Shown here: one piece after another, positions 28,471 through 30,554 of the stretch | Layout: every line of letters begins with the position of its first letter | How positions within the stretch are numbered: position 1 is the stretch's first letter | Source: Ruminococcaceae bacterium YAD3003 | Lineage (GTDB): Bacteria; Bacillota; Clostridia; Saccharofermentanales; Saccharofermentanaceae | DNA length: 64,000 bases | Assembly: GCA_900107185.1 (NCBI GenBank) | Contig: FNPA01000011.1 | Span: 1-64,000, forward strand | Reading direction: 5' to 3' | Notes under the pieces: model-generated | The model's input: only the letters and a program-made list of their open reading frames with translations | What the model was told of the DNA's origin: nothing | Database searches by the model: none | Program-made: the position numbers and the translations under genes

Positions 28471-29607
28471 TTACTGGCCGCAGAGGATCTCGATGAGTTT
28501 ATCTAATTCCTCGTTGTTCTTATAGTCGATAACAATGCGTCCGCGTCCTGTTGCACCGTCGAGCACCTTGAGCTTAACTTTAGCGCCAAGAATCTTCTTG
28601 AGCTTTGTCTCAACTTCTTTTGAGCTTAATGCCACACGGATATCCTGCTCAACGACTGCTTTCTTAGCAGAAGGATTCTCCTGAGCCTCAATATACTTCT
28701 TAACAAGTACTTCAGCCTGTCTGACGCTCAGATCACGTGTCATGATGACATCAGCTACCTTGCGCTGGTCTTCTTTCTCCTTAAGGCTGAGGAGGACCTT
28801 TGCGTGACCTTCTGAGAGATCTCCCCTGCTTACGAATTCCTGGAGAGATTCATCAAGCTTAAGGATACGGAGAGTATTAGCGATCGTGGCTCTGGGCTTA
28901 CCGAGTTTCTTCGCGAGGAGTTCCTGAGTAAGCTTATAGCTGTCCATGAGTTCCTGCATTGCTGTAGCTTCTTCAATAGGATTCAGGTCTTCTCTCTGGA
29001 TGTTCTCGATGAGAGCCTGCTCCATTACCTGTCTGTTTGTAAGATCTCTTACAATAGCAGGAATTACGGAGAGCTCGGCGATACGTGCAGCTCTCCAGCG
29101 GCGCTCACCTGTAACGATCATATAACCATCGCCTTTACGCTGTACGATGATAGGCTGGATGACACCGTTTTCCTTAATTGATGAAGCGAGCTCATTGAGC
29201 GCCTCATCATCGAATACCTTACGGGGCTGACCGTCGTTAGGAGAGATGTCATTGATCTTGAGTTCAACAACAGAATCTCTCTTGTTTTCCGGAATTCCTT
29301 CAGATGAGAGGAGAGCGCCAAGGCCCTTACCCATAGCTGATTTCTTCGGAGCAGAAGTTAATGTTACTGCTTTTTTTGCAGGTGTCTTCTTAGCAACAGG
29401 AGCAGGTTTCTTGGCTGCGACTGTTTTCTTTACAGGAGCCTTTTTGGGTGCTGCTTTTGCAACAGACTTTACTGCCTTCTTAGCAGGTGTTGTCTTCTTA
29501 GTTGCTACGGTCTTCTTTGAAGGAGTTGCCTTCTTTGCAGCAGGCTTAGCTGTTTTTACTGTCTTCTTTGATGAAGCCTTTGCTGTTGTCTTCTTTGTAT
29601 TTGCCAT
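28471..29607 (-). CDS. parB: ParB/Spo0J chromosome-partition protein with histone H1-like tail
   Basis: 378 residues. The core from about residue 91 (AMGKGLGALLSS) holds the ParB CTPase motifs (GERRWRAA, ENIQREDLNPIEEA), the parS-binding helix-turn-helix (LTQELLAKKLGKPRATIANTLRILKL) and a C-terminal dimer domain. The first 90 residues are an added tail of Lys-Ala-Thr-Pro repeats (PAKKA, KKTV, AAKKP). By direct count it has 29 lysines and no Asp or Glu, like eukaryotic H1 C-terminal tails or bacterial histone-H1-like proteins. It binds parS, slides as a CTP clamp and loads SMC; the tail would add nonspecific DNA binding (inference). It is 13 bp after parA, in one operon. Confidence 0.95.
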   Translation of the reverse strand: MANTKKTTAKASSKKTVKTAKPAAKKATPSKKTVATKKTTPAKKAVKSVAKAAPKKAPVKKTVAAKKPAPVAKKTPAKKAVTLTSAPKKSAMGKGLGALLSSEGIPENKRDSVVELKINDISPNDGQPRKVFDDEALNELASSIKENGVIQPIIVQRKGDGYMIVTGERRWRAARIAELSVIPAIVRDLTNRQVMEQALIENIQREDLNPIEEATAMQELMDSYKLTQELLAKKLGKPRATIANTLRILKLDESLQEFVSRGDLSEGHAKVLLSLKEKEDQRKVADVIMTRDLSVRQAEVLVKKYIEAQENPSAKKAVVEQDIRVALSSKEVETKLKKILGAKVKLKVLDGATGRGRIVIDYKNNEELDKLIEILCGQ

Positions 29608-29620
29608 GTTTTGTCTCCTT

Positions 29621-30382
29621 TTATACTCTCTTCAAAATCTCTTTTACCAAAGCCTCGTATGCCTTGGCACCCTTTGAATTCTTATCATAATCACAGATAG
29701 CAAGACCGTGGCTCGGAGCCTCTGCGAGTCTTACGTTTCTAGGGATTACAGTCTTGAAGACTTTGCCTCCAAAATACTTATCAGTCTCTTCTTTTACCTG
29801 GCGCGAGAGCTGTGTTCTCATATTGAACATTGTAAGAACAACACCCAGAATCTCGAGATCAGGATTGAGCTTTTTCTTAACGATATTGATCGTATCCATC
29901 AGCTGTGACAGACCCTCAAGAGCGTAGTATTCGCCCTGGATCGGAATTACAAGACGGTCAGCTGCTGTGAGAGCATTGATAGTCAGAAGACCCAATGACG
30001 GCGGGCTGTCGAGGATTATGAAGTCATAAGCATCAGCTACTGATTCAATAGCATTTTTGAGGATCTGTTCTCTGGAAATAACAGTAACCAATTCAACCTC
30101 TGCACCGGCAAGATTGATATTAGTAGGGCAGATGTCTACATTCTCAGCGTTTGTCTCGTATACGACATCAGCAAGAGATGCATCATTGATAAGAACATCA
30201 TATACAGTCTGTTCGAGCTCACGCTTATCAATTCCGAGGCCGCTTGTAGCATTAGCCTGCGGATCCATATCTATAAGGAGAACCTTCTTCTTTTTCTTGC
30301 CAAGGAAAGCAGCAAGGTTAACAGCGGTTGTAGTCTTTCCAACTCCGCCTTTTTGGTTTACAAGAGCAATTACGGTTGCCAT
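29621..30382 (-). CDS. parA: ParA/Soj chromosome-partition ATPase
   Basis: 253 residues. Deviant Walker A KGGVGKTTTAVNLAAFL with the signature lysine, Walker A' LLIDMDPQANATSGLG and Walker B DFIILDSPPSLG. It is a small Soj-type ParA without an N-terminal DNA-binding domain. It drives origin segregation with ParB and can influence DnaA. GGAG lies upstream of the start, and two parS sites are in the preceding gap. Confidence 0.96.
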   Translation of the reverse strand: MATVIALVNQKGGVGKTTTAVNLAAFLGKKKKKVLLIDMDPQANATSGLGIDKRELEQTVYDVLINDASLADVVYETNAENVDICPTNINLAGAEVELVTVISREQILKNAIESVADAYDFIILDSPPSLGLLTINALTAADRLVIPIQGEYYALEGLSQLMDTINIVKKKLNPDLEILGVVLTMFNMRTQLSRQVKEETDKYFGGKVFKTVIPRNVRLAEAPSHGLAICDYDKNSKGAKAYEALVKEILKRV

Positions 30383-30478: not shown

Positions 30479-30494
30479 TGTTCCACGTGGAACA
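30479..30494. other. parS: parS site 1
   Basis: TGTTCCACGTGGAACA, a perfect 16-bp palindrome and a known variant of the bacterial parS consensus. It is the ParB nucleation site, about 100 bp upstream of parA. Confidence 0.95.
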
Positions 30495-30538: not shown

Positions 30539-30554
30539 TGTTCCACGTGGAACA
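30539..30554. other. parS: parS site 2
   Basis: Identical to site 1 (TGTTCCACGTGGAACA), with exactly 60 bp from start to start. Confidence 0.95.

Follow-up and report, generated by a model that had tools for sequence, protein, structure and literature searches.

The chromosomal ParB of Ruminococcaceae bacterium YAD3003 raises the question of why a segregation protein with an ordinary core should begin with a long, lysine-rich and acid-free tail. The window, a stretch of 64,000 nucleotides from contig FNPA01000011.1, holds the complete gene and its surroundings (Table 1). The original prediction had described a start of ParB with 29 lysines, no aspartate or glutamate, and many alanines, threonines and prolines. 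This count was confirmed over residues 1-92 (29 Lys, 22 Ala, 14 Thr, 9 Pro, 8 Val and 6 Ser), which hold no arginine either and carry a net charge of +29. The first core residue is 93, from which the protein reads GKGLGALL. Given the composition of the core (9.8% Lys, 16.4% Asp/Glu) and treating residues as independent, the chance of finding at least 29 lysines in 92 residues is 8e-9, and that of finding no acidic residue is 7e-8. Lysine codon use in the tail (21 AAG, 8 AAA) equals that of the core (21 AAG, 7 AAA), indicating ordinary coding sequence instead of a plain base repeat, and Tandem Repeats Finder reported one weak array in the tail DNA, with an 18-base period, 3.6 copies and 65% match. 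An antisense open frame of 143 amino acids runs across the tail (window 29246-29677, plus strand); it is probably a consequence of the Lys/Ala codon make-up and was not taken as a gene.

Table 1. Features of the parB locus, with positions in the window.
Feature	Position	Strand	Basis
parB, 378 aa	28471-29607	minus	
N-terminal Lys/Ala-rich tail of ParB, residues 1-92	29332..29607	minus	composition, predicted disorder
ParB core, residues 93-378, including the stop codon	28471..29331	minus	Pfam domains, predicted helix 94-100
Shine-Dalgarno-like AAAGGAG shortly before the parB ATG	29615..29621	minus	6-base match to AAGGAG
ParA, the partner ATPase, adjoining parB upstream with the same orientation	29621..30382	minus	AAA_31, 6.5e-71
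parS site 1, exact TGTTCCACGTGGAACA	30479..30494	.	motif search
parS site 2, exact TGTTCCACGTGGAACA	30539..30554	.	motif search

A misannotated start is rejected as the source of the tail, because no in-frame start lies between the upstream stop and the ATG at 29607, and this ATG is preceded at the usual spacing by a strong ribosome site, AAAGGAG, whose first base is the last base of parA. Translation from the internal Met near residue 92 had been named as the outcome that would speak against a translated tail. In this genome no ribosome site was found at Met-92, and the junction Met, although kept in 28 of 31 long-tail loci, has a 4-base ribosome-site match in three of these 28 and none longer. 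No start signal is therefore conserved there, which supports translation from the upstream start. In all 31 loci a match of at least 5 bases stands before the start used, a count that is partly circular since starts in relatives were chosen as the first with a match of at least 4 bases. Dual-start isoforms are unlikely, as the conserved junction Met lacks a ribosome site, and a sequencing or assembly artefact is rejected because the tail recurs in 29 genomes.

Behind the tail stands a normal ParB core, as had been proposed, with ParB_N (3.6e-34), HTH_ParB (1.2e-36) and ParB_C (2e-9) matched by Pfam in this order over residues 113-375. The CTP-binding motifs of ParB are known as GERRxRA and ENxQR; both boxes are present (GERRWRA and ENIQRE), and G167, E168, R169, R170, A173, E201, N202 and R205 are invariant among 16 ParBs. 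An AlphaFold2 model of the single chain, built on a shallow alignment of 16 ParBs, gave block mean pLDDT values mostly of 76-93 over the core, with a weak linker at residues 311-330. The modelled core matches solved ParB and Noc structures, and matches to solved ParBs were obtained by sequence as well as by fold. Noc carries an N-terminal amphipathic membrane helix. No helix was predicted in ParB residues 1-88 of this shallow-alignment model, and the Noc model NCBIfam TIGR04285 scored 247.8 bits, below its cut-off of 315. The protein has the hallmarks of a chromosomal ParB/Spo0J, namely the domain order, the CTP boxes, an adjoining parA and parS near origin genes, and it shares domains, CTPase boxes, HTH, ParA partner and parS with those of Bacillus, Thermus, Caulobacter and Myxococcus.

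Beyond parA follow gyrB, recF, dnaN and dnaA, with names assigned by inspection. The two parS sites previously noted near parB are both exact and lie 60 bases from each other in the interval from gyrB to parA; with one mismatch allowed, the rest of the assembly holds no further site. Congeners have 0 to 5 sites, and 15 of the 16 zeros belong to genomes in which no ParB was read. Among the matches listed, parS sites are also closely clustered in most relatives, and a few have sites 0.2-1.1 kb apart or a one-mismatch site elsewhere. A second ParB-like gene, near a contig end of the same genome (G000:C15:134027-134647, L154), is a distant relative with 33% identity.

The tail itself is predicted to be disordered in the same model, with block mean pLDDT values of 39-54 over residues 1-90 and no secondary structure before residue 89. 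A short predicted helix at residues 94-100, the ParA-binding motif, follows directly behind it. Most ParBs read start a few residues before a GLGKGL-type motif, whereas here 92 basic residues precede it. The likeness to histone H1 that had been drawn is supported by the counts of lysine and alanine and the lack of Arg, Asp and Glu given above, and the tail shows the H1-like trait of a Lys/Ala/Pro-rich, acid-free, predicted disordered chain. Pfam gave no match to the tail alone, and the H1-like model NF038053 scored 13.7-15.4 bits (E 0.054) against a cut-off of 80. AlgP, PhaF, Chlamydia Hc2 and the Burkholderia H1-like NF038053 proteins share Lys/Ala/Pro/Thr repeats, disorder and variable length with the ParB tail, but each is either a tail on a different protein or a protein of its own.

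To place the tail among relatives, we read ParB N-termini across the genus and beyond. The genus search gave a match in 71 of 85 genomes, some only to distant ParB-like genes, and N-termini were readable at 66 loci from 64 genomes. Two loci each were counted for G011 and G047, which are likely mixed bins; G085 and G086 matched and stand outside these counts, and the 21 genomes with no readable N-terminus comprise 20 with no usable chromosomal match and one cut by a contig end (G061). Tails of at least 70 residues occur at 31 of the 66 loci (29 genomes), with observed lengths of 75-169 residues, net charges of +19 to +40 and a pooled composition of 29% Lys, 29% Ala and 1.6% Asp/Glu; the longest is that of a Saccharofermentans MAG (L062). 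Another 15 loci have tails of 20-69 residues. Across the long-tail loci the position and charge of the tail are kept, while the variation in length that had been expected between strains was found between species. Relatives in which the frame upstream of the core is broken or absent had been named as evidence against the tail. A broken frame was found in none of the 31 long-tail loci, whereas absence does occur, as a lineage difference, with fewer than 20 residues at 20 of the 66 genus loci and at all 23 sister-genus loci.

More specifically, 25 of 30 genomes from four sister genera matched, and the 23 ParBs read have at most 8 residues before the motif. From an order-level set of 188 genomes, the ten longest frames outside the family among the matches listed were read, and none of these ParBs carries a long Lys/Ala tail. 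Two ParBs from another family of the same order (L323 and L326) have moderately basic N-terminal extensions of about 45 residues, suggesting repeated gains. In an even sample across the phylum, 137 of 139 genomes matched, and no comparable tail was present at 43 loci, the best-scoring and longest-framed among the matches listed. On the sequences read, basic N-termini recur in the order, and H1-size ParB tails were found only in the source genus. The tail is a real, lineage-specific and conserved variant of ParB and no artefact.

Some congeners gave no chromosomal ParB match, and six of the eight tested (G059, G080, G023, G062, G016 and G035, five of them more than 92% complete) also gave no recF match, so that the origin region is probably absent from these six assemblies. 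The other two have partial gyrB matches and no parA match in the stretch. On these findings, assembly gaps fit better than a real loss of parB.

We further compared the tails of 14 close pairs, in which some genomes enter twice. Tail dN/dS is 0.05-0.19 in 12 pairs and 0.36 in one very close pair, values to be read with the downward bias on dN from repetitive, gap-rich alignments and with tail dS above 1 in 6 of the 14 pairs; the tail of the remaining pair shows no differences. In all 13 pairs that differ, dN is lower in the core than in the tail, and the tails carry indels amounting to 0-36 gap columns per pair. Asp or Glu is involved in 16 of 252 tail changes, where neutral codon neighbours would predict 12.4% (P 0.001). 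These substitution patterns indicate that the tail is under purifying selection, which preserves charge and composition more strictly than the sequence itself. At 11 of the 31 long-tail loci (e.g. in G069, G073 and G082) a GLGKG-like motif occurs twice, once at the core and once at the extreme N-terminus, which still resembles that of a canonical ParB, as in MATKGLGKGPKSAPKKK. This looks like a duplication of the N-terminus, with the lysine stretch grown between the two motif copies.

Such growth could also have been nearly neutral, with replication slippage lengthening a short basic N-terminus and selection only purging acidic and hydrophobic residues. The shifts in length by indels between close species, the higher dN of the tail and the several separate gains or losses within the genus suggested by the ParB-core tree, taken without ancestral reconstruction, would all agree with this. 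It is harder to reconcile with dN/dS well below 1, with a net charge roughly proportional to tail length, with the intact frames at every long-tail locus, and with the rarity of such stretches (2 of 970 open frames in the 40% genome sample described below). Due to the bias of the gap-rich alignments and the high dS, this explanation is weakened only; we consider it unlikely.

The reading that we favor, with a probability of about 0.5, is that the tail is an arm next to the ParA contact which binds DNA irrespective of sequence. In this reading a selected, disordered polycation has been added ahead of the motif by which an otherwise ordinary chromosomal ParB binds ParA; the DNA binding and every mechanical consequence are inferred. 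The tail would bind DNA without sequence preference, and when the CTP-loaded clamp closes at parS, the two N-termini would meet. Because the tail lies directly before the ParA motif, the closed dimer would carry a pair of arms, each of about +29, at its contact with nucleoid-bound ParA. These could then hold on to DNA of the nucleoid close by, extend the contacts between ParB, ParA and DNA and help to bridge and condense the origin region. The compaction of DNA and the change in clamp spreading that had first been proposed for the tail are putative. The tail would supplement the lysine surface of the C-terminal domain, since the charge of that domain is retained: it averages +3.2 with tails of at least 56 residues (n 33) versus +2.5 with tails below 15 (n 19), leaving out G018, which is cut at its C-terminal side. 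A tail that replaces this surface is therefore rejected.

Condensation by ParB has been studied in B. subtilis. ParB condensation is described as requiring a lysine-rich surface for non-specific DNA on the C-terminal domain (PMC5731820, available portion). Another study, likewise in its available portion, reports that clamp closure juxtaposes the ParB N-termini and that ParB and non-specific DNA act together on ParA (PMC12462528). Reports on tails of comparable kind diverge. In actinobacterial TopA, another chromosome-handling enzyme, lysine repeats stabilize the enzyme on DNA, according to the sections available (PMC7398561); they differ from the ParB tail in being C-terminal, on another protein and described mainly for GC-rich Actinobacteria. 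Peptides of KPAA repeats bind DNA (PMC9239181, in part). Myxococcus FrzCD has an N-terminal, histone-like basic tail that was shown to bind the nucleoid and in which charge and not sequence is kept, as stated in the accessible text (PMC5716589), but this tail has about 30 residues and belongs to a chemoreceptor. The mycobacterial FtsK extension, with about 100 basic and disordered residues at the N-terminus of a segregation protein, resembles the ParB tail in size and setting, yet it is Arg-rich, and the available part of the source reports that EMSA revealed no DNA binding by it (nFtsK, +23 in M. smegmatis) and that it bound the anionic lipids cardiolipin and phosphatidic acid (PMC13277299). 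DNA binding thus does not follow from a basic, disordered tail by itself. The titles and abstract openings searched held no report of a lysine-rich N-terminal tail on a chromosomal ParB or on polyphosphate kinase 1 (PPK1).

Two further observations count against a DNA grip. Tail-free congeners exist with the same parS word, usually at two sites, and PPK1 carries the same kind of tail. PPK1 is not known to bind DNA. Compensation by the tail for few parS sites is unsupported, as long-tail genomes have more sites and not fewer (mean 2.85, n 27, versus 2.05, n 20, in short-tail genomes; P 0.002, uncorrected for relatedness, with G011 and G047 left out).

Weak extra matches of the genus ParB search had pointed to PPK1. 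The PPK1 of the same genome (L251:6813-9278 on G000:C22, 821 aa) has 103 residues before NRELSW, with 25 lysines and 4 acidic residues, and the Pfam HC2 (H1-like) model matches the protein below threshold, at 23.4 bits against a cut-off of 40. The ppk1 start shares one base with the stop of the gene immediately before it, which belongs to the Ppx/GppA family. Net charges of +10 or more were found in 63 of the 75 PPK1 N-termini read in the genus, compared with none of 28 in the sister genera, which range from 0 to +9 with 27 at +5 or less; these counts leave out one piece from G082, three genomes in which no start was found (G047, G091 and G112) and G071, which has an open end. A PPK1 tail of at least 74 residues and at least +12 accompanies the long ParB tail in each of the 28 genomes in which PPK1 was readable. 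Where the ParB tail is shorter than 15 residues, PPK1 net charge spans 2 to 30 (n 15), and long PPK1 tails do occur without a ParB tail. The charges of the two tails correlate in the raw data (rho 0.58, n 58), but contrasts on the ParB-core tree gave no correlated evolution (r 0.02, P 0.90, 57 contrasts), so that a coupling of the two tails by this route is unsupported after correction for relatedness.

To assess how common such tails are, we took a 40% sample of the genome, covering 1,073,480 bases (1.07 Mb) and 970 open frames of at least 150 aa and excluding the window and G000:C22:1-20000. The two comparable frames encode 669 and 732 aa, and a 60-aa frame has a similar stretch. Lysine tails as a general habit of the genome are unsupported by this sample, and their rarity in it makes ParB and PPK1 unusual company. 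A search of the genome with the ParB tail as query matched ParB only; it also missed the PPK1 tail, the search being blind to such sequence. In the 669-aa protein (L288, G000:C9:130001-150000) the Lys/Ala-rich segment stands just before a hydrophobic stretch, and by eye the protein looks membrane-anchored and VanW-like. A DUF6465-like protein with a PAKKA tail (L251:2-232 on G000:C22; 25.8 bits, cut-off 26) is cut by the contig end. Its gene lies about 6.6 kb before ppk1, with ABC-F and leuCDB-like genes (by eye) and then the Ppx/GppA gene in between, and G005 (L153) has a similar DUF6465-like protein about 8 kb from ppk1.

Because PPK1 carries the same kind of tail, DNA is only one possible polyanion target of the ParB tail, and polyphosphate is a serious second target. 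Both tails might bind polyphosphate, PPK1 holding its own chain and ParB foci collecting polyphosphate or its granules at the origin; phosphate stores would then be placed and shared out with the chromosome. The PPK1 tail behind a Ppx/GppA-family gene, its contrast between genus and sister genera and its presence in every long-tail ParB genome whose PPK1 could be read (28 of 28) are in keeping with this, as are reports, available in part, that H1-like AlgP places and spaces polyphosphate granules in Pseudomonas aeruginosa (PMC9239181) and that lysine-rich stretches bind polyphosphate (PMC12077175). The two tails, however, do not evolve together in charge, and PPK1 can have a long tail without ParB having one. 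Furthermore, two polyphosphate-binding proteins described in the accessible part of the latter source had 9 lysines in 20 residues, four of them consecutive (PMC12077175), while this ParB tail reaches at most 8 in 20 with no run above two and so falls short of these two lysine polyphosphate-binding (KPM) proteins; a density of 9 in 20 occurs in four of the 31 long ParB tails, whose lysine runs are three at most. We regard a shared polyphosphate role as rather improbable.

The tail could also bind some other anionic partner, be it a membrane lipid such as cardiolipin or phosphatidic acid, RNA or an acidic protein, and so tune the location of ParB instead of gripping DNA. Noc, a ParB paralogue, uses its N-terminus for membrane binding, which lends this some plausibility, and the available part of the nFtsK study offers a precedent (PMC13277299). 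ParB acts on the nucleoid, however, and the tail has no hydrophobic face (30 long tails pooled, 2,963 residues in all, hold 2 aromatics) and no predicted helix before residue 89; we judge this distinctly unlikely. A still broader proposal, that the shared class of lysine tails forms a polyanion network in which PPK1, ParB and perhaps the DUF6465-like protein bind polyphosphate and DNA, is very doubtful; the titles and abstract openings searched held no centromere-polyphosphate coupling of such kind. If it were true, polyphosphate would be collected at the origin by the ParB-parS complex, which would pass on the phosphate stores together with the chromosome.

As a DNA-binding arm, the tail would bear on how sliding clamps and non-specific DNA grip share in the condensation of the origin by ParB. 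One genus with a shared parS word, similar cores and N-termini of 7 to 169 residues provides a natural test series, suited to tail swaps with spreading, bridging and ParA activation as readouts. The matching tail of PPK1 adds a testable link from phosphate storage to the chromosome.
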